Origin: Achromobacter insuavis
Lineage (GTDB): Bacteria > Pseudomonadota > Gammaproteobacteria > Burkholderiales > Burkholderiaceae_B
DNA: 64,000 nucleotides
NCBI RefSeq assembly: GCF_902859645.1
Contig: NZ_CADIJR010000017.1
Coordinates: 1 to 64,000 of the forward strand
Reading direction: 5' to 3'
In this document: piece by piece, positions 38,094-59,802 of the stretch
How positions within the stretch are numbered: the stretch's first letter is position 1
Layout: each line of letters starts with the position of its first letter
Position numbers and translations under genes: made by a program
Notes under the pieces: generated by a model
What the model saw: only the letters and a program-made list of their open reading frames with translations
Databases searched by the model: none
Told to the model about the DNA's origin: nothing

Positions 38094-38576
38094 ATGCGCA
38101 AATTCGCGGAGCTATACGAACAGAATCATTCCTGGCTGAAGGCTTGGCTCAGAAAGCGCCTTGGCAACCCGGACACCGCCGCCGACCTGGCACACGATAC
38201 GTTCGAACGCGTATTGACCAAGCCTCCCGCCGAGGAACTGAACGAGCCTCGGGCCTACCTCACCGTGGTCGCCAAGGGCCTGGTCGCGCATTGGTATCGC
38301 CGCAAGGCGATCGAGCAAACGTACCTGGATGCACTCGCGCTTGAACCCGAAGACTACGTTCCTTCAGTCGAGTCCCAGGCGGAAATCCTGGAGCGCCTGT
38401 TCGAGATCGATGCCATGCTGAGTAAACTTCCGGGCAAGGCCCGAGAGGCCTTTCTGATGTCCCAGGTCGATGGACTGACCTACCAGGAAATTGCCGACAA
38501 GCTGAACGTATCGCTTAGCACCGTGAAGCGTTACATGGTGATGGGTTTCGCTCAATGCCTGGCCACTCTGACATGA
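38094..38576 (+). CDS. FecI-like ECF sigma factor (iron-uptake type), system 1
   Basis: A 160-residue sigma factor of the FecI group. Region 2 (LYEQNHSWLKAWLRKRLGN, DTAADLAHDTFERVL) and region 4 (SKLPGKAREAFLMSQVDGLT, YQEIADKLNVSLSTVKRYM) cover nearly the whole protein. It overlaps the FecR gene by ATGA and the TonB receptor gene follows. No convincing Fur box was found in the 150 bases upstream, which is unusual for this family. It should direct RNA polymerase to a promoter activated by the cognate receptor. Confidence 0.93.
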   Translation: MRKFAELYEQNHSWLKAWLRKRLGNPDTAADLAHDTFERVLTKPPAEELNEPRAYLTVVAKGLVAHWYRRKAIEQTYLDALALEPEDYVPSVESQAEILERLFEIDAMLSKLPGKAREAFLMSQVDGLTYQEIADKLNVSLSTVKRYMVMGFAQCLATLT

Positions 38577-39532
38577 CACAAGCAACGACCCGAGCCAACC
38601 TGATCCAGGAAGCGGCGACCTGGATGATGCGGCTTTCCGACGAAGGCGCCACCGAGGCCGACTGGACGGCCTGGCGTCAATGGACGCAGCAAAGCGACGA
38701 ACACCGCAAGTACGCGCACCTGACGGAATCGCTGACGGCGAAGCTGCAGACCGTGCCGGGAAGCGTCGGCCGCGCTGCGTTGAACGCGCCCAAGGCCGCG
38801 GCAAGACGGACGGCGCTCAAGACACTTGCGTTCCTTTTGCTGGCCGCGCCGACGGGCTACGTGGTCACCCGCCTGCCCTGGCAAGCCTGGAATGCCGAGT
38901 ACCGCTCCAGCACCGGCGAACAGCGCCTGATCGCGCTGCCGGACGGCGGCACCTTGACACTGGACACCGCCAGCGCGGCCAATGTCGTCTACGACGATCA
39001 GCGTCGCAGCGTGCAAGTCGTGGCGGGCAGGGCCTACATCGTCACGGCCGCCGACAGCGCCCAGCCGCCCCGGCCGTTCCTGGTACAGACCCGGTTTGGA
39101 CAGGTGCGCGCCCTGGGCACACGTTTCGAAGTGCAGTTGGGCGACCGCGAAGAGCAGGTCGCCGTTTTCGAGGGCGCGGTGGAGATCACGCCGAAAGATT
39201 CCGCGACCTCGGCACAGGTTCTGCAGGCCGGATGGAAAACGACGTTCACGCGGAACCAGGTGCAACCGGCGGCGCGTTCACTCTCTCAGGCCGATCCGCT
39301 CTGGCTGCAAAAGCGCATCCAGGTCGACAACGTGCCGCTGGGACAATTGATCGAGGAACTGGGACGCTACCGGCCGGGCATCCTGCGCTGCGACCCCGAC
39401 GTGGCGGCGCTGCCCGTTTCGGGAACGTACCGCCTGGACGATACGGACCTTGCGTTGCGGTTGCTGGCCGAGGCGCTGCCGGTCCGCGTCACGCGGCGCA
39501 CCGCCTACTGGGTCACGGTCGGTCCCCGCTAG
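38573..39532 (+). CDS. FecR-like transmembrane anti-sigma regulator, system 1
   Basis: A 319-residue FecR family protein. The cytoplasmic N-terminal domain carries the characteristic Trp-rich pattern (AATWMMRLSDEG, DWTAWRQWTQQSDEHR). One membrane helix lies near residue 95 (LKTLAFLLLAAPTGYVV). The periplasmic part has the FecR core (GTLTLDTASAANVVY, FGQVRALGTRFEVQ) and a C-terminal STN-like half (NVPLGQLIEELGRYRPG). It receives the signal from the receptor encoded downstream and controls the sigma factor. The ATG at 38573 overlapping the sigma stop is preferred to the GTG-type start 18 bases earlier. Confidence 0.93.
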   Translation: MTQATTRANLIQEAATWMMRLSDEGATEADWTAWRQWTQQSDEHRKYAHLTESLTAKLQTVPGSVGRAALNAPKAAARRTALKTLAFLLLAAPTGYVVTRLPWQAWNAEYRSSTGEQRLIALPDGGTLTLDTASAANVVYDDQRRSVQVVAGRAYIVTAADSAQPPRPFLVQTRFGQVRALGTRFEVQLGDREEQVAVFEGAVEITPKDSATSAQVLQAGWKTTFTRNQVQPAARSLSQADPLWLQKRIQVDNVPLGQLIEELGRYRPGILRCDPDVAALPVSGTYRLDDTDLALRLLAEALPVRVTRRTAYWVTVGPR

Positions 39533-39543
39533 GCCGAGGCCGC

Positions 39544-41871
39544 ATGCGTTCCTGCCGGCCCGCCGCGGCACTGCCACCCTTGAGGCTACCGCTGAGGCGG
39601 GTCCTGCTCGCCAGTTTCCTGGCGACAGCCTGTGCCCTGCCAGCCATCGGTCACGCCCAACCGCGAGCGGCCATCCCTGGGCCTGCGGTCTTTTCCATTC
39701 CCGCCGGGCCGCTGTCGGCCGCGCTGGATCGATTCGCCAATGCCGCCGATCTCTCCCTGTCCTACGATCCCGCGCTGATACGGGACAAGCACAGCCCTGG
39801 CCTGTCCGGCGCCTACACCGTCGATGCGGCGTTCGCGGAATTGTTGCGCGGTACCGGCCTGACCGCGACGGCATTGGGACAGGCCGGCTATGTATTGCGG
39901 ACCACCGCAGCGGCAAAGGACGGCGTTTCGGGGGCTGCCACGTTGCGTCCGGTGCAGGTCGAGGGCATTCCGCCTGAAGAAGGCTATGCCGCGTCGACAA
40001 GCACTCTGGCCACCGGAACCGACACGCCGATCAAACAGATCCCCCAATCCATCCACATACTGACCCGGCAGATCATCGAAGACCAGCAGCCCCAGACGCT
40101 CTTCGATTTGCTGCGCAACGTGCCGGGCGTCAGCAACAACCCGCAGTTCTACGGCTTTGACAACGACGCCTACGACATGCGCGGCTACGGCTCGCGCCTT
40201 CTGCTGGACGGCATCGCGCCACAGTTCGGCTTCCGTATCCCCGCCATCGGCGTGGAACGGGTGGAAGTGCTCAAGGGCATTGACTCGGCGGCGATGGGCG
40301 ATATCACCCACGGCGGCGTGGTCAACGTCATGCTGAAGCGCCCGCAGGCCGAGTCCGTCCGGGAAATCCGCGCGGAGGCCGGATCCCGGGGCCGCGCGGG
40401 AGTGTCGATGGATGTCGCCGGCACCGCGCCCGACAACACCCGCCTGCAGTACCGCCTGATTCTTTCGACCACCCGGGCGGACGGCAATACCGCGGGGTAC
40501 CGGGGGTTGCGTGAAACCTACCTTGCTCCCTCTGCCGCGTGGGACGACGGTACGACGCGCATCGAACTGGGCCTGCAGTATTCGCAGGGCCGCCTGCCGA
40601 CAAGCCCTTTCACGGTCACGGTGAACGGACGCCCGGCCACGTTGTCCGGCCCTATCGCCAACGCGGATGATCACACGAACTACGAACAAACCCGCCCATA
40701 CTTCGCACTGCGCCAGCAACTGAACGACAACTGGTCTTTCAACGGCAGCGCCAGCGTCACCCGGCAGCGCCATACGGAATACGCCTACCGGCTGGGGCCC
40801 GCCAATCCGCAGGGCGGGGCCTACTACCTGCCATTCCGCGAGGACAGCAGCCAGCGCAACACCGTCGTCGACGGCCATCTGCAGGGCAGGTTCGACACCG
40901 GCCGCGCCACCCACGACGTCACGACCGGCCTGTCCTATTACGCAAGCTCGGTCGACACCACGATCGCGTCGGGGGATCTTTTCCCGGGCAACGTCTTCTC
41001 CCCCCGGGTCCCGTTCCCGTCTTCGGACATCACGCCCAATATCGAGCGCCTGTCCAATTCGCCGCTGCGCTCCTCGCGCGCCTATGCCCAGGATTTCATG
41101 ACCCTGGACAAGCGCTGGCATGTGATGGCCGGGATTGCGCTGAATCAATTGCCGCAAGAGGGCGGACCGACCGAGCGCGCCTGGACGCCAAAGCTGGGCC
41201 TGAGCTTCGACGTCTCAGACACGATGTCGCTCTACGGCGCGTACTCGCGCGGCTTCTCCACCTACCAGCCCGCGGCGCAAGGCACCGCGAGCGTACGGCC
41301 CATCCGCAGCAAGACCCTCGAAGCGGGAATGAAGTTCGACTGGCCCGACCGCCCGCTCAACGCGTCCATTGCCCTTTTTCAGACATCGCTCGACCATTAC
41401 CTCGAACCCATACCGGACTCTCCCCTGTACCGACAGGTTGACAGCGGCAGAAGCCGAGGATTGGAACTCAGCCTGCAGGGTCAATTGACGGCAGCCTGGC
41501 AAACCGTCGCCAGCTATACGTACACGGACTTCCGGCCCGCGGCCAACCAGGTGAATCCCATACCCAGGCACATGGCCAGCCTGTGGGCCAAATACACGTT
41601 CCTGGACCCGGCCTGGAGCGGTTGGGGTCTGGGCGCCGGCGTGTATGTACAGAGCGGATATGCCGGCGACGGCCAGGGATTCGGCGACTTCCGCATCGCG
41701 GGGCAGGCCCGCACCGATGTCAGTCTGTTCTACCGTCGCGACCGTTTCAGCGCCACCCTGGGCGTGCGAAACCTGTTCGACCGGACCCTGTACGCCGGCC
41801 ATGCCGTGGCCACACGCATCTACCTGGATCCAGGGAGAACGGTGCTGCTGACAACGGCCTACCGGTTCTGA
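39544..41871 (+). CDS. TonB-dependent siderophore receptor with STN signalling domain, system 1
   Basis: A 775-residue outer-membrane transducer. After the signal peptide comes an STN domain (about residues 45-125: FSIPAGPLSAALDRFANAA, LSLSYDPALI), then the plug (PIKQIPQSIHILTRQI, ERVEVLKGIDSAAMGD) and a beta-barrel ending in the aromatic TTAYRF. It resembles ferric-siderophore receptors such as FpvA/FoxA; the ligand is unknown. It begins 11 bases after fecR, so unlike fecA-type genes it has no room for its own promoter and is probably on the sigma/FecR transcript, or has a promoter inside fecR. Confidence 0.93.
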   Translation: MRSCRPAAALPPLRLPLRRVLLASFLATACALPAIGHAQPRAAIPGPAVFSIPAGPLSAALDRFANAADLSLSYDPALIRDKHSPGLSGAYTVDAAFAELLRGTGLTATALGQAGYVLRTTAAAKDGVSGAATLRPVQVEGIPPEEGYAASTSTLATGTDTPIKQIPQSIHILTRQIIEDQQPQTLFDLLRNVPGVSNNPQFYGFDNDAYDMRGYGSRLLLDGIAPQFGFRIPAIGVERVEVLKGIDSAAMGDITHGGVVNVMLKRPQAESVREIRAEAGSRGRAGVSMDVAGTAPDNTRLQYRLILSTTRADGNTAGYRGLRETYLAPSAAWDDGTTRIELGLQYSQGRLPTSPFTVTVNGRPATLSGPIANADDHTNYEQTRPYFALRQQLNDNWSFNGSASVTRQRHTEYAYRLGPANPQGGAYYLPFREDSSQRNTVVDGHLQGRFDTGRATHDVTTGLSYYASSVDTTIASGDLFPGNVFSPRVPFPSSDITPNIERLSNSPLRSSRAYAQDFMTLDKRWHVMAGIALNQLPQEGGPTERAWTPKLGLSFDVSDTMSLYGAYSRGFSTYQPAAQGTASVRPIRSKTLEAGMKFDWPDRPLNASIALFQTSLDHYLEPIPDSPLYRQVDSGRSRGLELSLQGQLTAAWQTVASYTYTDFRPAANQVNPIPRHMASLWAKYTFLDPAWSGWGLGAGVYVQSGYAGDGQGFGDFRIAGQARTDVSLFYRRDRFSATLGVRNLFDRTLYAGHAVATRIYLDPGRTVLLTTAYRF

Positions 41872-41908: not shown

Positions 41909-44524
41909 TCACTCGCAGCGACTGTCTACGGCCGTCCACATCCGCGCGGCCGGCGCCGGCGGCGTCGCCGGCAACGTCACCGCCAGGCGGCATTGGCCGC
42001 CCTCGCCTTGCGCCCAGACGACCCGGTACGTCGACGCCCCCGCCGCCGCGTTGCGCAGCAGCAGCCGGCCGGCCTGCGCCACCGTGCCGACGTCGTTGCC
42101 CGCCGAGTCGACGACCCGTGCGCCGAACGGCACCGGGTCGCCGCCGGACAACCGCGCCCGCACCAGCACGGCCTGGCCGCCGCCCTCGGTCTCGAACGTC
42201 ACCGGCACGACCGCGCCCGCGGTCGGCGCCACGTGCTGAATGGTCGACTTCAGCGCCACGCTCAAGGGCAGGCCCTTGGGATCGACTTCGATTTCATTGC
42301 TGGCGAACGGTGTCAGATTGGAGACGACCGCGCGGCCCCAGGGATCGATGCGCAACCCGCTGCCGCTGGCCACCCGCGCGCCGGCGGCATGCCGGGCTTC
42401 GACCACGACGGCGGTATCGCCCAGCGCGGGCGTGAATACGACGCCACCGCCATATGCCACCACGCCTCCCGACACCGTGGCGCCATACTGCGAGAACCCG
42501 CGTCCGCCCGATGCATTTGCCGCCATGGTGGCGTAGGGCGATGCGTAAGCCGCGCTGCCCCCCGCCACGGAGGACGCTGCCGCCCCCCCCAGGCTGCGAC
42601 TCGCATTCACGCCATAGGTCAGGGCGCCGTCCTCGCCCGTCGCCCCGGTGACCGACTGTTGAACATCGGTGCGGCCGCGGAAATTGTTCTGCACGTTCGT
42701 CGAGGCATACAACTGCCGTGCGCCGCTGCCGATGGGGATGCCGATATTGAGCATCGCCACGTTGTCCCAGCGCTGCGATGAGGCATCGTACTGACGGGCA
42801 AGCGACAGGCCGGCGCTGACCCGGCCGATGCTGGTGCTGTAGCCCGCCTGGAACTGCGTGTCCCGGCCCGGGCGGTTCCAGTAGTCCTGCGAAGACCCGC
42901 TCAGGTAGAAAGATCCCCAGCCCGACGGCAGCTGCTGATTCACCGTCAATTGCAGACGGCCGCGCAGGAATCCCCCGGTCGGATTGCCGCCGGAGAGACT
43001 GTCGGCGCTGTCGCGGCGGGCGTCGCGGTCGCCGTGGCGCAGCGACATCGCATCGCGCAGGTCGAGATAACCGCGGCTGGAGTAACGGTAGGCCGCCACG
43101 GTGATGTTGGTGTCGGTCGGCGCGATCAGCTTGCTATACGACAAGCGCACGCTGTGACCGGATCGCTTTCCTTGCGCGCCCAGCTCGGCGCGCGACTGCG
43201 TCGCGTCCAGGCCCACCGCGCCCCACTCCAGGTTCAACGCCACGCCGGCCATGCCCGCGGCGTAATCGCGGCTGGCGATCACGCCGCCATAGCCCGTCAG
43301 CATGTTGGTGAATCCGTGCTGCAGCGTGGCCTGCATCACATAGGGCCGATCGCCTCGCATCAAGGGATCCCGGTACGCGCCCGCCACCAACCCGTAACGG
43401 GTCACGCCGGGCCGCAAGGCATTCACCGCCGCCGCATAAGGCACGCTCGCCTGGTGCACACTGCCATCCGCCTCCGTGACCTCGACGATCAACTCGCCGC
43501 CATATCCCATCGGATACAGGTCGTCGATGACGAAAGCCCCCGGCGCCACGTTGGTTTCATAGATGACGCTGCCGTTCTGCCGCACGCGCACCACGGCATT
43601 GCTGCGCGCGATACCTGTCACGCGGGGCGCATAGCCGCGCTGGCTCTGCGGCAACATCCGGTCATCGGTCGACAGTTGCACGCCGCGAAAGCCGAAACTG
43701 TCGAACAGCGCGCCGTCCGTGTACGCGTCACCCATCACCAACTGGCTGCCCATCGACCGGATCGCGCGCTGCACGTTCGTCTGCACGCTTCGATAGCGCG
43801 AATCCGCGGCGGAGCCGGTCGTCAGGTTGCCGCTATGGCGCAGGCGCCAGGGCCCGGCGTTCAACCCGCCGGACAGTCCCAGGTATCCCTGCGACACCGC
43901 ATGCCCCTGCTGGTCGGACCGGAAATAGTTGGCGTTGTACTGCAACAGGCCGGCGGGCACGCCGTCCGTCCAATAGCGCGGGTCGATGTAGCCGCGCGGC
44001 TGGCGCTTCATCGCCGCCTGCGGGACCGTCACGTCCAGCCGCTGCTCGCCCGTATCGAAGGCCGCCGTCGCGCCGGGCACCCAGGCATCGACCGGCGCAC
44101 AGGCCTGCGGCGTCTCCCTGCCCGGCGCCGCAGCCGGAATCGCGCCGCCCGCCCGCGCGTCAACCGCATTCAAATCGACGCCGGCGCGCTCGAGCAGCTC
44201 CCGATCAAAGCAGGGCAGCGCATTGCCGTGGCGAGCGCCGACCGGCTTGAGCGTGACCTGGACGCTCCCCAACTGCATGCCATTGACGGAAAGATCCGCT
44301 CGATACGTACCCGGCGCGGCGACGTTGCCGCGGTTGTAGCGGGCCAGGTCCACGGGCGCGCCGCGGTTCACGAGGAACTGCGGATTGAATTCCACCTCGG
44401 CCATCTGCATGGGTTCGCCCTCGGCCGCCCCGAACGCTTGCGCGGTTGCCAGAGCCAGCAGGGCCGCCAGGCGGCATGGGTGCGGCACGCGCCGCGCGTC
44501 ATTCTGTGTTTTTCTCGTTTTCAC
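41909..44524 (-). CDS. Fimbrial outer-membrane usher
   Basis: An 871-residue PapC/FimD-type usher starting at GTG. After the signal peptide comes the N-terminal chaperone-binding domain (EVEFNPQFLVNRGAPVDLAR), then the 24-strand barrel with its plug (RGYAPRVTGIARSNAVVRVRQ region; FVIDDLYPMGYGGELIVEV). Two C-terminal domains follow (TNEIEVDPKGLPLSV-like ASNEIEVDPKGLP, then PFGARVVDSAGNDVG). It secretes and assembles the pilin and adhesin encoded upstream in the same operon. It is somewhat longer than average and appears intact. Confidence 0.94.
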   Translation of the reverse strand: MKTRKTQNDARRVPHPCRLAALLALATAQAFGAAEGEPMQMAEVEFNPQFLVNRGAPVDLARYNRGNVAAPGTYRADLSVNGMQLGSVQVTLKPVGARHGNALPCFDRELLERAGVDLNAVDARAGGAIPAAAPGRETPQACAPVDAWVPGATAAFDTGEQRLDVTVPQAAMKRQPRGYIDPRYWTDGVPAGLLQYNANYFRSDQQGHAVSQGYLGLSGGLNAGPWRLRHSGNLTTGSAADSRYRSVQTNVQRAIRSMGSQLVMGDAYTDGALFDSFGFRGVQLSTDDRMLPQSQRGYAPRVTGIARSNAVVRVRQNGSVIYETNVAPGAFVIDDLYPMGYGGELIVEVTEADGSVHQASVPYAAAVNALRPGVTRYGLVAGAYRDPLMRGDRPYVMQATLQHGFTNMLTGYGGVIASRDYAAGMAGVALNLEWGAVGLDATQSRAELGAQGKRSGHSVRLSYSKLIAPTDTNITVAAYRYSSRGYLDLRDAMSLRHGDRDARRDSADSLSGGNPTGGFLRGRLQLTVNQQLPSGWGSFYLSGSSQDYWNRPGRDTQFQAGYSTSIGRVSAGLSLARQYDASSQRWDNVAMLNIGIPIGSGARQLYASTNVQNNFRGRTDVQQSVTGATGEDGALTYGVNASRSLGGAAASSVAGGSAAYASPYATMAANASGGRGFSQYGATVSGGVVAYGGGVVFTPALGDTAVVVEARHAAGARVASGSGLRIDPWGRAVVSNLTPFASNEIEVDPKGLPLSVALKSTIQHVAPTAGAVVPVTFETEGGGQAVLVRARLSGGDPVPFGARVVDSAGNDVGTVAQAGRLLLRNAAAGASTYRVVWAQGEGGQCRLAVTLPATPPAPAARMWTAVDSRCE

Positions 44525-44606
44525 GGCAATCCGCCATCGACAGGACGCACGGCTCCCCGACGCGCCGACAGCGCGCCGTGATCCGACATCAATCAGGGAA
44601 AAAGGA

Positions 44607-45359
44607 TCAGTGCATGACGCGGGGCCGCGTCGAGGCCTCGCCAGTAACGAGGCCGCCGTAATCGTTCACGACTTCGTAGCGCACCTGGACGCCCGCCGGC
44701 GCCGTAAGCCTGCCCTTGAGCGGCACCCGGCGCGTTTCGCCCGGCGCCACCATCAGGCCGTCATCGAACAAGGCCTTTTCGCCGCCAGCGGCGGCCTGGA
44801 TCGTCGTGAACGTCACGTGATAGGCGCTGGGGTTGTGCACGCTCAGCACATAGCCGCCGGCCTCGCCATCGAGCGACCACACCGCTTGCGCCGGCGCATC
44901 GACCGCCTGCCCCGGCAACTGGCCAGGCCGGAAGAACACTTTGATCCGCGAGCGGAACGCGAACTGCAGATGATTGGCGGTCTGCGCATCCGACGGCTTC
45001 GGCGGAATCTCCAGCACGTTGAGCCAAAAGACGGACTCCCGGTCCTGCGGCAACGGTTCCCCGGTATAGGCCACGCGCAACGTCTGGCCTTTCTCGGGAT
45101 CGATGCGCGATACGGGCGGTGTTATCAGGAATGGCGCGCTGGCCTCGGACGGTGCGGCGTCCGCATCGCCGCTATCGGCCCAGACCTGCACCAACGCGGG
45201 GGTCTTGCCTTCGTTGGACAGCTTGACGGTGACCTCCTGGTCGCCCGCCGGATAAACGACACGCGTGCCCGAGATCACGACGGACGCCACGGCCGGAATA
45301 CTGATCGAGGCCAGCGCAGCGGCGGCGAAGGCCAACGAACGGAACAGAAAAGTACGCAC
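44607..45359 (-). CDS. Periplasmic fimbrial chaperone (PapD family)
   Basis: A 250-residue exported chaperone with a signal peptide (FAAAALASISIPAVASVV). The first Ig-like domain has the G1/F1 features GTRVVYPAGDQEVTVKLSNEG and QTLRVAYTGEPLPQDRESVFWLN, where the conserved Arg and the alternating hydrophobic strand bind pilins. The second domain contains FRPGQLPGQAVDAP and VHNPSAYHVTF. It starts at GTG. It stands between pilin and usher and feeds subunits to the usher by donor-strand complementation. Confidence 0.94.
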   Translation of the reverse strand: MRTFLFRSLAFAAAALASISIPAVASVVISGTRVVYPAGDQEVTVKLSNEGKTPALVQVWADSGDADAAPSEASAPFLITPPVSRIDPEKGQTLRVAYTGEPLPQDRESVFWLNVLEIPPKPSDAQTANHLQFAFRSRIKVFFRPGQLPGQAVDAPAQAVWSLDGEAGGYVLSVHNPSAYHVTFTTIQAAAGGEKALFDDGLMVAPGETRRVPLKGRLTAPAGVQVRYEVVNDYGGLVTGEASTRPRVMH

Positions 45360-45427: not shown

Positions 45428-45964
45428 TTACTGATAGGCCAGCGTGTACGTGACCGTGGTGGTGACCGGGCCGGCATCCACCGCGCCCGCCGCGAAGTAC
45501 TGGGCAACGTACGACAGCGTGGCGCTGCCGCCGGTGAGGTTGACCGGCGCGCTGTTCTGCGCCGCCGCGGCCGCGCCGACAACAATGGGCGTGTTGTCCC
45601 CCTTGTTCAGCAACTGCACCTCGACGTTGGCGGCGCCGCCCGCGGCCGTGTTCTTCAGATTGCCGTTCGGGCGTACCGTGCTGCCGGGCTCGAAATACGT
45701 CGACACCTTCGTGGCGGAGCCGGTACAGTTGGTCAGCGAAATGCTGAACGCCGTGGGCCCGGCGGTCGCGCCCGGATTGGCCAGGCGCGTCTTCGACACG
45801 GAAGGCAAGGTCACCGTGAAATCGCCATTGTCCTGGCCGTTGATCTTGCAGGTGGTGTCCGTGATCGAACCGTTGAACGTGATCGTGCCGTCGACGGCGA
45901 ACGCCGATTGCGATGCCAGCGCGCCGACAGCCAGGAACAGAGCGGAATAAAGAGAAGTCTTCAT
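45428..45964 (-). CDS. Major fimbrial subunit (type 1 pilin family)
   Basis: A 178-residue pilin. The signal peptide ends near ASQSAFAVD, and the mature start DGTITFNGSITDTTCKI resembles Bordetella-type and type 1 pilins. The disulfide Cys pair is in DTTCKI and SLTNCTGS, and the C-terminus ends in the chaperone-recognition pattern with penultimate aromatic (TVTYTLAYQ). The start at 45964 is preferred; a longer frame to 46069 lacks a signal peptide at its N-terminus. It has its own upstream box (46052-46078) and could therefore be made in excess over the adhesin. Confidence 0.93.
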   Translation of the reverse strand: MKTSLYSALFLAVGALASQSAFAVDGTITFNGSITDTTCKINGQDNGDFTVTLPSVSKTRLANPGATAGPTAFSISLTNCTGSATKVSTYFEPGSTVRPNGNLKNTAAGGAANVEVQLLNKGDNTPIVVGAAAAAQNSAPVNLTGGSATLSYVAQYFAAGAVDAGPVTTTVTYTLAYQ

Positions 45965-46051
45965 ATCAATGAGGGATAGTGAGCCAGGAGAGGAGAGAAC
46001 CGGGCAGCGCTCCCGTGTCGCTGCTTCTGCGTTGCAGGTTCTGTCTGGTAG

Positions 46052-46078
46052 GCCACTTGAGCCGATCAAAAAGGCTCA
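46052..46078 (-). promoter_or_regulatory. Fimbria/EAL shared box, copy 1 (pilin promoter)
   Basis: On the minus strand CCTTTT-N7-CTCAAGTGGC, preceded by TGAG and followed by CTACCAG, lies 88 bases before the pilin start. The same two blocks with the same spacing occur before the adhesin and before the divergent EAL gene. Confidence 0.6.
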
Positions 46079-46155
46079 GACTCGAACGGATTAATTTGTA
46101 ACGGCCATCGCGCCCAGCGTTCGCCGCGCGAAATGGCCGGCCGCCCCCGGGCGGC

Positions 46156-47265
46156 TTAACGGTAAAGCAACGTGAAAATCAGCGTGCCGTTCGCAGTCCC
46201 TGGCTTGATAGCCGCCCCTGTCTGGACATAGGACGCATAAAAGTCCGCACTGTAGGAGCCGCCCGTTGCCGGCGCGTACTGGGCGACTTCATACCCAGGC
46301 GCTCCGAACGCCATCGGCTTGCCATTCGACACGCTGACGAGCTTGAGCCCCAGCCCCTGCGCCGTCGACTCCGCGCTCAGGGCGATGACGCCGTTGTTGG
46401 CGTCAACGACGCCCGATGGCGCGCTGAATTGCAGCCCGATGCGCTGCAGCCCGGCAGGGCAGTTATTGATGGGGACCGAGAATTTGACCCTGGGGGTCTC
46501 CGAGCCGACCCCCTTGAACGACTTCGTTGTGTACTGGCCCAGCGGCACGGTCACGTTCGACGTGGTGCAACTCTTCACGGAGACGGCTACGGCGTTGACC
46601 CGAAAAGACGCATTGGGCCCCGGGCTGACGATGGGGTTGTTAATGTCGGCCCCTCCCATGATGGGGCGCGTCAGCAGCACGTCGCCGGGCAGGGAGACCA
46701 TGCCCGGCTGGATATCTCCGGTTTTGACCAACATGGCGGTCATCGCATTGAAGCCGTACGGTTGCCGGCCATTGTTGTCCGGACCGGCGCAGGTCCGCCA
46801 TCGCGATCCGCCGTTTCCCGTCATATCCACCCGTCCGGCCGGCGGTTGCGGGCCGCAGCCCCCGACGACAAACTGCCCGGAGAACGCAATGCCGACCCCT
46901 GGCAGGTTGGTCGCATGGACCTTGTAGGTCCCGCCGCCATTGGCGGGGTTCTGAACCGTCACGTTGGTCTGTGTCAGCCCCACGATGCGGATGTCGATGC
47001 CCGCGACCGAATTGGCCGTGATATCGCACGCATAGATGGTGTTCATTCCCGTCCAATCGGCCGTCGCCAGCAGCGTTCCCACCGGCGCATCGCGGGGCAC
47101 CGAGATCGCGCTGGGAAACGTCACTGAAAAGAGTCCGCCATTCGCGAGCGTGCACGTCGTTACGGCACCTGCCTGTAACGGCGCGCCGAAGAAAAGGATG
47201 ATGGCCAGCGCCGCAAGCCAGCGCAACGGCGCGGCACGGGGTGGCAGAAGCGGGGTACTGAACAT
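46156..47265 (-). CDS. Fimbrial tip adhesin-like two-domain subunit
   Basis: A 369-residue exported protein with a signal peptide (FFGAPLQAGAVTT). The C-terminal half (from about residue 215) is a pilin domain: VSVKSCTTSNVTVPLGQY and INNCPAGLQRIGLQF hold the Cys pair, and the end GTLIFTLLYR fits the chaperone motif. The N-terminal half (TCTLANGGLFSVTFPSAI, GIAFSGQFVVGGCG) is therefore probably the receptor-binding domain. It is the first gene of the fimbrial operon, whereas tip adhesins are usually last. The receptor cannot be predicted. Confidence 0.88.
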   Translation of the reverse strand: MFSTPLLPPRAAPLRWLAALAIILFFGAPLQAGAVTTCTLANGGLFSVTFPSAISVPRDAPVGTLLATADWTGMNTIYACDITANSVAGIDIRIVGLTQTNVTVQNPANGGGTYKVHATNLPGVGIAFSGQFVVGGCGPQPPAGRVDMTGNGGSRWRTCAGPDNNGRQPYGFNAMTAMLVKTGDIQPGMVSLPGDVLLTRPIMGGADINNPIVSPGPNASFRVNAVAVSVKSCTTSNVTVPLGQYTTKSFKGVGSETPRVKFSVPINNCPAGLQRIGLQFSAPSGVVDANNGVIALSAESTAQGLGLKLVSVSNGKPMAFGAPGYEVAQYAPATGGSYSADFYASYVQTGAAIKPGTANGTLIFTLLYR

Positions 47266-47346
47266 GGATTGCCCTCTTGGCGACGCTTTGAAATCAGTGG
47301 AATCGCGACCCGGTCGGAAGTGCTTTCGAGCCGCTTGCCCTGGGAT

Positions 47347-47373
47347 GCCACTTGAGACGCGAAAAAAGGTTCA
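47347..47373 (-). promoter_or_regulatory. Fimbria/EAL shared box, copy 2 (adhesin promoter)
   Basis: Minus strand TGAACCTTTT-N7-CTCAAGTGGC followed by ATCCCAG, 82 bases before the adhesin start. Confidence 0.6.
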
Positions 47374-47454
47374 TTGCGCGCCCACATCGAACGCGCCCGC
47401 CTCCCGCAGGACCCGAGCCGATTTATCTGGTTACATATTTTTCGGCAAAAGCAC

Positions 47455-47480
47455 GGACCTTTTCGTTGCGCTGAAGTGGC
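47455..47480 (+). promoter_or_regulatory. Fimbria/EAL shared box, copy 3 (EAL promoter)
   Basis: Plus strand GGACCTTTT-N7-CTGAAGTGGC followed by ATACCCG, 47 bases before the EAL start. It is the mirror orientation of the other copies and matches the direction of transcription of its own gene. Confidence 0.6.
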
Positions 47481-47527
47481 ATACCCGGAGAAGCCGCACC
47501 GCGGTCCACTACAAGCGAAAGGAAATC

Positions 47528-48913
47528 ATGGCGACGAAGTCCCGCCCAATCTCAAGAACACCGCGCCAAGGCGCTTCCGTCGACCGGCGTCATGAGACCT
47601 TCGGCCGCCAGAAAGAACCCGTGCCCGACCTCCTCGCAGCCGGGCAAGCCGCCATGCGCCCCACCGATGGCAATCCGTCGGCGATCCTGCTTGCGCCCTA
47701 TACGGCGGTGCGCGCGGCGTGCATCTATATTGACGGCCTGCCCGATCTGTTCGCGGCCTACGGCACTGCCTGCGTGCAGCGAGCCATCGATCGTGCATTG
47801 CCCGAACGGCTGGCCGCCATCGGCATTGACGCCCATCGCATTGCACGTATCGGTCAACATGCCGTTGTCACGCTGGCGGACCACGCGCCGCCCTGCTCGC
47901 CCGACGATGATGTGCTGCTTGAGCGGATCAAGGCGGCCGTCTCCTGCGAGCCGCTGGAGTGCGAAGGTCACCGCATCCTGCTCAAGGTACTGGTCACCCT
48001 GGGGGTGCCCGAGACCTGTCTGGAGGCGTCTCCGTTCGATACGGCGCGCTATCCCGCTCACGCCTGGCCCCCGCTGCCGGAAACCACCCAATCCCTGAAC
48101 GCGCGGCTCACGGCGTTTCGCAACGACATGGACATGGCGACGGCGTTCTTCGACGATGTCCATTCCGGCCATGTCACCCTGGCCTTCCAGCCCGTCATCG
48201 TGTCGTCGAGCCTCCGGGTGCCGCTCTACCACGAAGCCCTGCTGCGTCGCATCGACGGCAACACCGCCACGACTTGCTATCCCGTCATCCAGGCGCTGGA
48301 ACGGCTGGGCCTTGTCGCCCGACTGGACCGCAGCGTGCTTTGGACCGCCATCGGCCTGCTTGAACGCCACCCGGATATCTGCCTGGGAGCCAACGTATCG
48401 GCGCTGTCCTTGCAGCACGACGGTTGGTGGCGCGTCCTGCAGGATTATCTGGCGAGAAATCCCGGGATCGCCGAGCGCCTGACGCTCGAAATCACCGAGA
48501 CCAGCGCCATCACCAACGCCGAAGAGGCGGCCAATCTGTTGTTGTCATTGCGCGTGATGGGCTGCCGGATTGCCCTGGACGACATGGGCGCCGGCTACAG
48601 CACCATCAGCTTCCTGGCCGCAACGCGCCCGAATATCGTCAAGATCGACAAGACCTTCGTGACCCAGACGGAAGGCAAGCGCCAGCCCCAGACGCTGCTC
48701 AAGCACTTCGTGACACTGTGCTCGGACCTGAGCGCATGCGTCATCGCGGAAGGCATCGAAACCGAAGCTGACGTCGCCGCCGCCACGCAGGCGGGCGTGC
48801 ACGCGCTGCAGGGCTACCATCTGGGACGCCCGGAGTTGGCGCCCGCGTGGCTGGTCGGGCCGGCCTGTGTCAAGGACAGCTTCGCGCACGACCATCGGAC
48901 CTGGCAGGCATGA
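47528..48913 (+). CDS. Degenerate GGDEF-EAL protein, probable c-di-GMP phosphodiesterase
   Basis: A 461-residue soluble protein. Residues about 60-120 resemble a collapsed GGDEF domain (ACIYIDGLPDLFAAYG, then RIARIGQHAVVTL where RxGGDEF would be). The EAL domain runs from about 205 to 450 and keeps the catalytic set: EALLRR, the Asn in GANVSA, LEITET, ALDDMGAG, VKIDKTF, AEGIETE and LQGYHLGRP. It is therefore probably an active c-di-GMP phosphodiesterase. AAAGGA precedes the start. It is divergent from the fimbrial operon and shares a promoter box with it, so it may tune fimbriation or surface attachment. Confidence 0.92.
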   Translation: MATKSRPISRTPRQGASVDRRHETFGRQKEPVPDLLAAGQAAMRPTDGNPSAILLAPYTAVRAACIYIDGLPDLFAAYGTACVQRAIDRALPERLAAIGIDAHRIARIGQHAVVTLADHAPPCSPDDDVLLERIKAAVSCEPLECEGHRILLKVLVTLGVPETCLEASPFDTARYPAHAWPPLPETTQSLNARLTAFRNDMDMATAFFDDVHSGHVTLAFQPVIVSSSLRVPLYHEALLRRIDGNTATTCYPVIQALERLGLVARLDRSVLWTAIGLLERHPDICLGANVSALSLQHDGWWRVLQDYLARNPGIAERLTLEITETSAITNAEEAANLLLSLRVMGCRIALDDMGAGYSTISFLAATRPNIVKIDKTFVTQTEGKRQPQTLLKHFVTLCSDLSACVIAEGIETEADVAAATQAGVHALQGYHLGRPELAPAWLVGPACVKDSFAHDHRTWQA

Positions 48914-55789: not shown

Positions 55790-56323
55790 ATGTCCGGACC
55801 GAACGTCCTGCCGGCCTTCCACAGTCTTTATGCGGCGCATCACGGCTGGTTGCGCGCCTGGCTGCTGCGCAAGCTGAAATGCCGTTTCCACGCCGAGGAC
55901 ATTGCCCACGACGCGTTCCTGCGCCTGCTGCGGCGTGGCGGCCTGGAAACTGCGGACCAGCCGCGCGCCCTGCTCGCCACCACGGCGAACCGGCTGGTGA
56001 TCGATGAACGGCGCCGCCGGGACATCGAACAGGCCTACCTGGCGCTGCACGCCGAGCAGCACGCAATGGCCACGGAGGCCTCAGCCGAACAGGTCGCCAT
56101 GGCCGTGCAGGCCCTGGCGGCGATCAGCCAGGCCATCGAGCGCCTGCCGCACAATGCGGCGCAGGCCTTTCTCATGAGCCTGTACGACGGCATGTCCCAA
56201 CATGACATCGCGCGGGTCCTGCGGGTGTCGGAACGCTCGGTCAAGCTGTACATCGCCCAGGCCTTGCTGGCCTGCCACGACGTGCTGGCCGACTCGGCCC
56301 CACTCAGCGGCCATGCTGTTTGA
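55790..56323 (+). CDS. FecI-like ECF sigma factor, system 2
   Basis: A 177-residue FecI-type sigma factor. Region 2: LYAAHHGWLRAWLLRKLKC, AEDIAHDAFLRLL. Region 4: AIERLPHNAAQAFLMSLYDG, QHDIARVLRVSERSVKLYI. It overlaps the FecR gene by 11 bases and sits just behind a strong Fur box. It should activate the receptor promoter when the receptor binds its ferric siderophore. Confidence 0.94.
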   Translation: MSGPNVLPAFHSLYAAHHGWLRAWLLRKLKCRFHAEDIAHDAFLRLLRRGGLETADQPRALLATTANRLVIDERRRRDIEQAYLALHAEQHAMATEASAEQVAMAVQALAAISQAIERLPHNAAQAFLMSLYDGMSQHDIARVLRVSERSVKLYIAQALLACHDVLADSAPLSGHAV

Positions 56324-57308
56324 CGAGGCCGCCGGCCCGTCCGGCGAAGCGGCACTGCCTCGCGCCGCGCTGGAACAGGCGGCGCATTGGCACAGCGTGA
56401 TGGACGGGGCTCCGAGCGCCGAAGAGACCCGCGCGTTCGAGCAATGGCGCGCCGCCCACCCCGATCACGAGCGCGCCTGGCAACGCATGCAGGCGCTGTG
56501 GGGCCTGCTGGCTGCGCCGGCTCGACAAGCTCCTGGGCCCCGCTTGAGCGCCCTGCTGCACGAAACCCGCGCGCGGCGCCGCAAGCGTCGCGGCCCGGCC
56601 GTGCGCGCGGCGGCGTTCGCCCTGGCCGCGTTGGCGCCTGCGTGGTGGGCCCTGCATGCCCAACTGCCGTGGCTGGCCGCCGACCTGCGCAGTGGCGTGG
56701 GCGAACACCGCACGATCGAACTGAGCGACGGCAGCCGCCTGACGCTCAACACCGACAGCGCAGTCGACATCGTCTATAGCGCACAGGAACGCCGCATCGT
56801 ACTTCGGCAGGGCGAGATCCTGGCGGAAGTGGCACCGGGCCAGGCCAGCCGGCCCTTCGTCGTCGACACCCGCGACGGCAGCGCCACGGCGCTGGGCACG
56901 CGCTACATTGTCCGCCTGCTGCCCGATGCCACCCGCGTGACGGTGACCGAATCACACGTCAAGGCGTGTCCTGCGCGGCCCGGCGCAGCCTGCCAGGATG
57001 CCGCGGCCGGCCAGACGCTCGACATCCGTCCCGACGCGGTCGGCCCGCCGCGGACCGCCCCGCGCGATGCCGAGGCCTGGACCCAGGGCCGCCTGTCGGT
57101 CAGCGATACGCCCTTGCCGCAGGTGCTCGACGAACTGGCGCGCCACCGCCGCGGCCTGCTGCTTTACGACGCGCGGGCGCTGGCCGACTTGCGGGTGTCG
57201 GCGGTGCTGCCGCTGGACGGCGACGCCGCACTGGCGTCGCTGCAGGAGAACCTGCCCATCCGCGTGCGCCACTACGGCCCCTGGGTGCAGCGGATCGAAC
57301 GCCGCTAG
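56313..57308 (+). CDS. FecR-like transmembrane anti-sigma regulator, system 2
   Basis: A 331-residue FecR protein. The cytoplasmic domain has EQAAHWHSVMDGAP, RAFEQWRAAHPDHERAWQRM and RARRRKRRGPAV. The membrane helix is near residue 95 (RAAAFALAALAPAWWAL), and the periplasmic core contains SRLTLNTDSAVDIVYSAQ and SATALGTRYIVRL, ending in an STN-like module (DTPLPQVLDELARHRRGLL). An insert with two Cys (VKACPARPGAACQD) is not present in the system 1 FecR. It couples the receptor to the sigma factor. Confidence 0.93.
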   Translation: MLFDEAAGPSGEAALPRAALEQAAHWHSVMDGAPSAEETRAFEQWRAAHPDHERAWQRMQALWGLLAAPARQAPGPRLSALLHETRARRRKRRGPAVRAAAFALAALAPAWWALHAQLPWLAADLRSGVGEHRTIELSDGSRLTLNTDSAVDIVYSAQERRIVLRQGEILAEVAPGQASRPFVVDTRDGSATALGTRYIVRLLPDATRVTVTESHVKACPARPGAACQDAAAGQTLDIRPDAVGPPRTAPRDAEAWTQGRLSVSDTPLPQVLDELARHRRGLLLYDARALADLRVSAVLPLDGDAALASLQENLPIRVRHYGPWVQRIERR

Positions 57309-57388
57309 CGCGGGCGACAACCGGATATCGGTATTCCGAACAAAGTTGTAACCGCCATTTCCCTTTTTGACGCGTGGCTCGTCATCTC

Positions 57389-57410
57389 CTCCATGCACAA
57401 CCGCATGGAG
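57389..57410 (+). promoter_or_regulatory. Hairpin that sequesters the receptor ribosome site
   Basis: CTCCATGC (57389-57396) and GCATGGAG (57403-57410) form a perfect eight-base stem with a six-base loop. The right arm contains the GGAG that should serve the ATG at 57418. Confidence 0.55.
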
Positions 57411-57417
57411 CATTGCG

Positions 57418-59802
57418 ATGTACCCGAGACGATTGCGCCGGTCGCTGGCCGGCCTGACCCTGTTGCTGCAGACGGTGGCCCATGCTGCCGGCGAGGCGCC
57501 GATTCCGGCCGGACCGCTGGACGACGCGCTGGGCGCCTATGCCCAGCGCCACGGACTGGTGATTTCCTACGATGCCGCGCTGACGCGCGGCCTGCGCAGC
57601 CCGGGCCTGCCGGCGCCGACGGGCTCCGATGCGGACCTGTCCGGCCTGCTGCAAGGCACCGGCCTGTCGGCGCGCCGTAACGCCGAAGGCCGGTTGCAGG
57701 TCTTCCGCACGCCTGCGCCGGGCGCGGTGGAACTGGCGCCGATCACGGTGCCGGGCCTGCGCGAATCCGCGTTCGGACCGGTGGACGGACTGGTCGCCAC
57801 CCGCAGCGCCTCCGGCTCCAAGACCGATGCCGCGCTGCTGGAAACCCCGCAGGCCATCAACGTCGTCAGCCGCGCCGAGATGGATCGTCGACCGGTTCGC
57901 AGCACCGCCGAGGCGCTGGCCTACACCCCCGGCGTCAATGCCGCCTGGGCGGGCTATGACGTGCGCTTCGACGTGATCCAGTTGCGCGGCTTCAACGCCA
58001 ACTACGCCACATACCAGGACGGCTTGCGCACCGCCACCGGCGAATACGTGATTCCCCGGCTCAACCCGTACGGCGCCGAACGCATCGAAGTGCTCAAGGG
58101 GCCGGCCTCGGTCCTCTACGGCCAGAATACGCCGGGCGGCCTGGTCAACTACGTCACCAAGGCGCCGCCCGATGCGCGCCAGGGCGAGGTCCAGCTCGAA
58201 GGCGGCAACAACGGCCACAAGCAAGGCGCCTTCGACCTGGGCGGCCCGCTGAACGAGGCGGCGACGCTGCGCTACCGGCTGACCGGGCTGTATCGCGATG
58301 CCGACGCCTCGCTCGACCATGTGTCCGAGACCAACCGCTATATCGCCCCGGCCTTCACCTGGGCGCCGAATGCCGACACCAGCTTCACCCTGCGCCTGCA
58401 ATACCAGCGCGACCGCGTGGATGGCTGGACCGGTTATTTCCTGCCGGCCGAGGGCACGCTGTACGACAACCCGAACGGCGGCCTGAAGCGTTCGCGCTTT
58501 CCGGGCGAACCGGGCGTGGATCGCTGGGACGTGGAACAACGCTCGGTCGGATACCGCCTGGATCATCGCCTGGACTCGACCTGGAAGGTCAGCCAGAACC
58601 TGCGCTACGCCGAGATCGACTTCAGCGCCCGCAACAGTTTCCTGAACGGCTTCCTCGACGCCGACAGGCGGCTGGTTGATCGCAGCTATGTCGGCTGGAA
58701 GGAACAGGTCTACGCCTTCTCCGTCGACAACCAAGTGCAGGCCGATTTCGACACCGGCCCGCTGTCGCACACCGTGCTGGCCGGGCTGGACCTGCGCCGC
58801 ACCAACAACGGCTACCGCTTCTACATGGGGTCTCTGGGTCCGCTGGACCTGTACCGCCCCGTCTATGGCCAACGGCCGCAGGACATCGCCGAATACACCA
58901 ACACCCGCACCCGCGCCACGCAGATCGGCTACTACCTGCAGGACCAGATCCGCGCGGGCCAATGGGCCTTCACCGGCGGCGTGCGCCACGACCACGCCTG
59001 GAATCGCAAGCAGGGCATCAACTTCGGCAGCGACGCGGCCAATGCCCAGGACGACACGGCCTGGACCGGACGCGCCGGCGTGGTCTACCTGGCGCGTAAC
59101 GGCCTGGCGCCCTATATCAGTTATTCAACGTCGTTCGACCCCGCCATCGGCGCGACCCGCTCCGGCACGCCGTTCAAGCCGACCAAGGGCGAGCAGTACG
59201 AAGCGGGTATCAAGTACGAGCCGCCCGGCCAGAAGGCCTTGATCACCCTGTCCGTGTTCCAGCTGACGCAGAAGAACGTGATCGCCACCGATCCGGCCAA
59301 CCCCGCCTTCAGCGTGCAGACGGGCGAAGCGCGCGTGCGCGGTCTGGAACTGGAAGGCAAGGCGGAACTGGGTGGCGGCTGGAACGTGATCGCCTCCTAT
59401 GGCTACAGCCAGGGCGAAGTCACCCGCAACACGCCCGATGCGATGGGCATCAACACCGAGGGCAACGCGCTGCAGAATCTGCCACGCCACCAGGCCGCGC
59501 TGTGGGCCGACCACCGCTTTGGTGGCATCGCCCAGGGCCTGAGCGCCGGCCTGGGGGTGCGCTATCGCGGCAGCACCTATGGCGATGCCAACAACACCCT
59601 CGCGATGAAACCGGTGACGTTGGTGGACGCGCGCCTGGCCTACGACCTGGGCGCGCTGGACCCGTCGTTCAAAGGCTTGGCCGTTGCCCTGTCCGCCACC
59701 AACCTGTTCGACCGCCGCTACGTGGCCAGTTGCGGCAGCACGACATCGTGCTACTGGGGCCAGGAGCGCCAGGTGTACGGCACGCTGAGCTACCGCTGGT
59801 AA
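57418..59802 (+). CDS. TonB-dependent siderophore receptor with STN domain, system 2 (FhuA/FpvA-like)
   Basis: A 794-residue outer-membrane transducer. The preferred start at 57418 has GGAG eight bases upstream; a longer frame to 57367 would add 17 residues. The signal peptide ends near HAAGEA. The STN domain (IPAGPLDDALGAYAQRHGLV) is followed by the plug (RIEVLKGPASVLYGQNTPGG) and a barrel ending in TLSYRW. Features such as FYMGSLGPLDLYRPVYG are shared with FhuA-like hydroxamate receptors, so a ferric hydroxamate is a possible ligand (moderate). There is a 109-base gap after fecR, room for a sigma-specific promoter. Confidence 0.93.
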   Translation: MYPRRLRRSLAGLTLLLQTVAHAAGEAPIPAGPLDDALGAYAQRHGLVISYDAALTRGLRSPGLPAPTGSDADLSGLLQGTGLSARRNAEGRLQVFRTPAPGAVELAPITVPGLRESAFGPVDGLVATRSASGSKTDAALLETPQAINVVSRAEMDRRPVRSTAEALAYTPGVNAAWAGYDVRFDVIQLRGFNANYATYQDGLRTATGEYVIPRLNPYGAERIEVLKGPASVLYGQNTPGGLVNYVTKAPPDARQGEVQLEGGNNGHKQGAFDLGGPLNEAATLRYRLTGLYRDADASLDHVSETNRYIAPAFTWAPNADTSFTLRLQYQRDRVDGWTGYFLPAEGTLYDNPNGGLKRSRFPGEPGVDRWDVEQRSVGYRLDHRLDSTWKVSQNLRYAEIDFSARNSFLNGFLDADRRLVDRSYVGWKEQVYAFSVDNQVQADFDTGPLSHTVLAGLDLRRTNNGYRFYMGSLGPLDLYRPVYGQRPQDIAEYTNTRTRATQIGYYLQDQIRAGQWAFTGGVRHDHAWNRKQGINFGSDAANAQDDTAWTGRAGVVYLARNGLAPYISYSTSFDPAIGATRSGTPFKPTKGEQYEAGIKYEPPGQKALITLSVFQLTQKNVIATDPANPAFSVQTGEARVRGLELEGKAELGGGWNVIASYGYSQGEVTRNTPDAMGINTEGNALQNLPRHQAALWADHRFGGIAQGLSAGLGVRYRGSTYGDANNTLAMKPVTLVDARLAYDLGALDPSFKGLAVALSATNLFDRRYVASCGSTTSCYWGQERQVYGTLSYRW

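Follow-up and report, generated by a model that had tools for sequence, protein, structure and literature searches.

Candidate FecI-type sigma promoters before fimbrial genes and a divergent EAL-domain gene in Achromobacter insuavis

Three copies of a 23-base box, CCTTTT-N7-CTNAAGTGGC, stand before the pilin gene, the adhesin-like gene and a divergent EAL-domain gene in a 64,000-nucleotide stretch of Achromobacter insuavis DNA (NCBI RefSeq assembly GCF_902859645.1, contig NZ_CADIJR010000017.1; this whole stretch is called the window below), and judged from their letters and layout they are best read as FecI-type ECF sigma promoters. Most probably, such promoters would be read by the FecI-type sigma factor whose gene lies near the fimbrial genes (Table 1), which would thereby co-activate the pilin-chaperone-usher genes, the adhesin and the phosphodiesterase. 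Sigma factors of this type usually activate iron uptake, and the fimbriae of this bacterium may thus be under the control of cell-surface signalling. In an earlier note on this DNA, the box had not been recognised as a known motif and was ascribed to one regulator or an unusual promoter class; the promoter class is supported, since the layout is of the FecI-type ECF kind and linked FecI/FecR/FecA genes occur in two species, but the motif falls in a class already described, and no additional DNA-binding regulator has to be invoked.

The three copies were indeed present, exact at the positions and on the strands given in the earlier note and with identical internal spacing, and the similarity described past the box, [CA]T[AC]CC[AC]G, was genuine. 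The gap of 47 bases between box and start codon of the EAL gene was reproduced, whereas the gaps of 88 and 82 bases claimed for pilin and adhesin were measured as 87 and 81. In addition, sites 1 and 3, and also the A. pestifer site, carry GTTACA, which had been missed before, at a distance of exactly 28 bases upstream of CCTTTT; no GTTACA was present at the -35 place of site 2 (adhesin). The fourth site listed in Table 1 may be a chance match.

Table 1. Boxes, associated promoter elements and genes in the window
Feature	Position	Strand	Remark
Box 1, pilin side	46052..46074	-	-10 TGAGCCTTTT and downstream element CTCAAGTGGC, read as FecI-type promoter; profile score 19.35
Box 2, adhesin side	47347..47369	-	TGAACCTTTT-N7-CTCAAGTGGC; profile score 20.3
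Box 3, EAL side	47458..47480	+	CGGACCTTTT-N7-CTGAAGTGGC; profile score 6.6
Putative -35 of box 1, GTTACAAATTAAT	46090..46102	-	
Putative -35 of box 3, GTTACATATTTTT	47430..47442	+	
Possible weak fourth site, TGATCCTTTT-N7-TTGATGTCG	44582..44609	-	~80 bases 5' of usher start; score 15.9
FecI-type ECF sigma factor gene	38094..38576	+	Proposed reader of the boxes; 160 aa; PF04542 and PF08281 (regions 2 and 4 only)
FecR-type sigma regulator gene	38555..39532	+	PF04773, 73.5 bits
FecA-like TonB-dependent transducer gene	39544..41871	+	PF07660 (STN signalling domain), PF07715, PF00593
Usher gene	41909..44524	-	
PapD-type chaperone gene	44607..45359	-	
FimA-type pilin gene	45428..45964	-	
Adhesin-like gene	46156..47265	-	C-terminal fimbrial domain; first gene here, last fimbrial gene in nine related operons
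EAL-domain gene	47528..48913	+	Probable c-di-GMP phosphodiesterase; divergent from fimbrial genes

A search of the 6,822,063-base genome for the 23-base pattern returned these three exact matches only, together with four sites at two mismatches and 37 at three. At up to three mismatches there was no genome-wide excess, 44 matches being obtained against 284 for the reversed control pattern. When the ORF context of seven near matches was read (four with two mismatches, one with three, and two with one mismatch from sister genomes), a pilus or c-di-GMP gene stood behind none of them. The loose pattern is not decisive alone, because three of 100 shuffled windows also gave at least three matches with up to three mismatches. 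The exact block carries more weight: the best ungapped 23-base block common to the three upstream regions was the box itself, and its 15 invariant columns were attained in none of 240 dinucleotide shuffles, the maximum being 13. A search of a plasmid collection gave no match, and when the letters of the box were sought in print, the matches listed concerned other subjects only.

The reading as FecI-type promoters begins with the E. coli K-12 fecA promoter (GGAAAATAATTCTTATTTCGATTGTCCTTTTTACCCTTCTCGTTCGACTC, with CCTTTT-N7-CTC), whose layout, CCTTTT-N7-CTCGTTCG, matches that of the boxes. In box 1, box 2 and the A. pestifer box, the -10 TGNNCCTTTT is followed after 5-7 bases by a [CT]TC-type downstream element; in box 3, which scores weakly on its own, CCTTTT-N7-CTG is present. 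The CCTTTT would then be the 3' part of the -10 (TGNNCCTTTT), CTNAAGTGGC would be the downstream element just past the transcription start that FecI-type promoters require, and GTTACAAAT, about 25-28 bases upstream at two sites and absent at site 2, would be a weak and less critical -35. In the excerpt available of a mutagenesis study of fecA (PMC9249621), mutations in the -10 or past the start had strong effects, and those in the -35 far weaker ones; as far as that excerpt goes, this pattern agrees with what the boxes conserve, including the missing GTTACA at site 2. The downstream element AAGTGGC of the boxes differs from the CGTCCGG or CGTTCGG of most other FecI promoters read and from the GTTCGAC of E. 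coli fecA. A scan of 45900-47620 for sigma-70 promoters revealed none, and the spacings of sigma-54 and sigma-28 promoters were not found by eye.

In order to compare the boxes with other promoters, two profiles were used. The first was made from sequence only, with four sites (the three boxes and that of A. pestifer), and was run against 43 Achromobacter genomes under strict filters by which weak matches may be lost; it gave 19 new matches beyond the training sites. Six of these, the top five included, lay in loci of the order FecI-FecR-gap-TonB receptor, inside the gap before the receptor, and the other 13 were outside FecIRA loci. Four of these six gaps between fecR and receptor gene repeat the 13 bases of GTTACAAATTAAT with equal spacing, and one gap (L182) carried GTTACAAATTAAT, then TGAGCCTTTT, six bases and CTCGTCCGG, in alignment with box 1.

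The second profile was compiled from 12 fecR-fecA promoters, that of E. coli among them, with no member from the window or A. pestifer. A near-duplicate of the L182 locus (L184) was dropped, and seven of the 13 FecI loci in the series L205-L217 (L205, L206, L208, L209, L210, L212 and L216) were left out for want of a recognisable CTTTT-type site ahead of the receptor. Possession of CTTTT was a selection criterion for the training promoters, and any CCTTTT box gains by it, so this profile is partly circular for CTTTT and its independent part is the TG before CTTTT plus the downstream element. Read with that limit, it placed box 2 and then box 1 at the head of the 127,900 positions of the window, and in 31 kb of A. 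pestifer sequence the box of that species had the top score (16.3; next 14.2). On 100 shuffled windows, six positions attained 19.3, the largest score being 23.4. Box 3 reached a score that 56 of the 127,900 positions attained; since this is weak, its assignment depends on the exact match with the other two boxes and on the GTTACA spacing. These comparisons suggest that FecI-type promoters may be recognisable by the -10 together with the downstream element; the outputs of further FecI systems would then be easier to locate.

The FecI/FecR/FecA cassette of the window adjoins the fimbrial genes, with fecI 7.5 to 9 kb from the boxes, and in A. pestifer the corresponding cassette is directly divergent from the pilin gene, its FecI, FecR and FecA being 69, 55 and 50% identical to those of the window; the STN domain of the A. 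pestifer receptor falls just below the curated cut-off (27.3 vs 28.4 bits). A profile of the two FecI proteins, run over 268 family genomes, gave its own members 339 and 335 bits, and no other match exceeded 206. The two genomes, of 43 in the genus, that have the box profile are also those that have this FecI pair. No FecI-type promoter was visible before the receptor gene either in the window, where the gap between fecR and fecA is 11 bases, or in A. pestifer; a receptor gene lacking a FecI-dependent promoter is the departure of this cassette from the fec archetype. Upstream of fecI, the best candidate for a Fur box agreed at 9 of 19 bases and was not convincing.

A different FecI protein, or several, could instead read the boxes, in which case the fimbriae would be part of a broader regulon for iron or haem starvation and the FecIRA genes next to them would be a mere fellow traveller. 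The genome does hold at least five FecI-like matches at E<=1e-50, and because of them the assignment of the FecI at 38094-38576 to the boxes is drawn from linkage and co-occurrence. The window itself has a second FecI-FecR-receptor cassette (55790-59799, plus strand); the gap ahead of its receptor gene contains a sequence resembling a FecI-type promoter (CCCTTTTTGACGCGTGGCTCGT, near 57362, score 11.15), and the best-matching promoters elsewhere sit in other FecI-receptor loci. The AAGTGGC element, however, is shared with A. pestifer only, and of all FecI proteins found, the fimbria-linked one of that species is most closely related to the linked FecI of the window; we regard control by another FecI as unlikely.

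Homologous fimbrial operons were read from eight of the 26 other genus genomes that gave an adhesin match; there were nine of them, all in the order pilin-chaperone-usher-adhesin. The closest, that of A. pestifer (usher 63% identical), is the only one of the nine in which the EAL gene directly follows the adhesin; a weak EAL match lay some 4 kb from the operon at L085. The A. pestifer pilin promoter reads GTTACA-N22-CCATTT-N7-TTCGAGTGGC, with spacing equal to that of the window sites. Conservation at orthologous loci, which would be expected of a functional box, was therefore seen in this one species and not in the eight other, more distant operons (seven genomes), the box being absent from the 400 bases upstream of pilin in eight of the nine. 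An extended pattern with up to three mismatches matched 22 of the 268 family genomes; the matches of two of these, that of the window (with two sites) and that of A. pestifer, were at this locus, and the other 20 genomes had three mismatches each.

In A. pestifer one box stands ahead of the whole cluster, while in the window the cluster is in three units with one box each, and the same regulon is predicted for both. We infer the relative age of the one-cluster and the split arrangement from the nine operons with pilin first. We lean, with slightly better than even confidence, to the view that FecI/FecR/FecA has been rewired here, its dedicated output being an adhesive organelle and a c-di-GMP phosphodiesterase rather than the receptor, that each unit of a split ancestral cluster obtained its own copy of the sigma promoter so that the regulon stayed whole, and that an extracellular ligand would directly switch the fimbriae and tune c-di-GMP.

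In the proposed mechanism, binding of a ligand by the TonB-dependent transducer FecA would be relayed by FecR, and FecI would be set free. Together with RNA polymerase, FecI would initiate at the boxes, so that the pilin-chaperone-usher genes, the adhesin and the EAL gene would be transcribed in step, and the phosphodiesterase would lower c-di-GMP during fimbria production. The transcription starts and the sigma factor that would use them are inferred from the DNA, as are the signal and any effect on c-di-GMP. The columns that three relatives conserve include the residues taken to be catalytic in EAL domains, and the solved relatives of the EAL protein include active phosphodiesterases. A scan of genome contigs with the adhesin gave no relative. 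By eye, the pilin genes have no obvious Shine-Dalgarno sequence, neither in the window (45964-46000, minus strand) nor in A. pestifer (L083 near 13341, minus strand).

Among known systems, the proposed one resembles ferric citrate signalling by FecI/FecR/FecA of E. coli, which has an ECF sigma factor, a FecR and a TonB-dependent transducer with an STN domain, and a promoter of CCTTTT-N7-CTC plus a downstream element; unlike in E. coli fec, the visible FecI-type promoters of the window precede fimbrial and EAL genes and not the receptor gene. In Pseudomonas syringae B728a, a FecI-type sigma gene, ecf7, lies near the cupC chaperone-usher genes and is needed for full cupC expression, according to the part of that report at hand (PMC3597554), and by analogy this is a precedent for FecI-type control of chaperone-usher genes; the same part mentions no ECF promoter motif for cupC and no linked phosphodiesterase. 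The PUMA3/VreAIR system of Pseudomonas aeruginosa, in the extract consulted, is a case of surface signalling with an output beyond iron uptake (PMC2729926), but it differs from the window in that its receptor is described there as lacking a beta-barrel, and as output it names virulence genes, among them a two-partner secretion system, rather than chaperone-usher fimbriae. The type 3 fimbriae of Klebsiella (mrkABCDF and mrkHIJ) are like the window in having chaperone-usher genes with an EAL phosphodiesterase gene, mrkJ, nearby; in contrast, the activator of mrk is the PilZ protein MrkH, which acts through a 12-bp palindrome centred at -78.5, and the portions available of both sources note no ECF sigma promoter (PMC3161979, PMC3828302).

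In one literature collection, nothing was found that unites FecI/FecR/TonB-dependent signalling with chaperone-usher fimbriae and c-di-GMP. If true, the proposed control would provide a candidate sigma factor, a promoter open to testing and a route to an external signal for an Achromobacter fimbria, and it would join TonB-dependent surface signalling and c-di-GMP, control layers that are usually studied apart. It would also offer a clear case of a gene cluster that was broken up with its control retained through replicate promoters.

Alternatively, a different regulator tied to c-di-GMP could act on the box as an operator or as an RNA element of the 5' leader; an example would be the atypical OmpR-type protein encoded next to the EAL gene of A. 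pestifer. An OmpR-type regulator is linked to the EAL gene both in A. pestifer and in the genome G039, but in the window genome no protein stands out as its ortholog. A search of 45700-47800 with Rfam gave no match at E<=1, and the four leaders had no common fold and a stability not above that of shuffles (z -1.3 to +0.7); a short hairpin is formed by each of the two pilin boxes (window and A. pestifer) but not by boxes 2 and 3. The sigma-promoter reading already explains the layout of the box, and an operator or RNA element is very improbable. Genes for atypical OmpR-type winged-helix regulators near an EAL gene were seen at L083:6292-7263 and L084:3290-4150 (31% identity), and also near L144, L145 and L146.

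Phase variation, with boxes 2 and 3 as the inverted repeats of an invertible promoter that would express adhesin and EAL gene in turn, could be suspected from the inverted orientation of these boxes, the 88 bases between them, the GTTACA at box 3 but not at box 2, and the EAL relatives of other genera, which are preceded by 73-82-base segments between inverted palindromes and have a serine invertase gene close by. It is nevertheless the least credible reading and is rejected for the window because no serine recombinase (PF00239) was detected in the window genome or A. pestifer (control positive in 10 of 14 known genomes) and because A. pestifer has a single, unpaired box, with no second copy at up to two mismatches in 31 kb; moreover, the ten tyrosine recombinase matches of the genome all lie off the window's contig, the N7 parts of boxes 2 and 3 differ, and box 1 before pilin carries the same element.

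Apart from the FecI-type promoters proposed for the window, several features were observed elsewhere. Among 20 EAL loci read outside Achromobacter, in other genera of the family, apparent invertible promoters were seen upstream of EAL relatives at L143, L144, L145, L147, L149, L152, L153, L154, L157 and L161, and in part at L162; the inverted form of the segments was not seen. Their palindromes were near GACAAAAGG-N4-CCTTTTGTC and paired 95-104 bases apart, with complementary centre dinucleotides in all ten of ten pairs. A serine recombinase gene was close to the EAL relative in 11 of 23 loci tested, and PF00239 was confirmed in four of four tested. Genes for large surface adhesins were found 3' of the EAL gene, of YadA type in L147 and an autotransporter in L143. 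An intergenic-looking sequence around ACACCTTTTTGTCGGCTGAAGCCGC in four sister genomes (L195, L196, L197 and L200) gave a weak match to the box profile and is not beside FecIRA genes. Finally, in a more distant genome (L169:7933-10346), an EAL gene, a response regulator gene and a second, partial EAL gene stand ahead of an adhesin-like gene, and two palindromes about 915 bases apart have cores that are reverse complements of each other.
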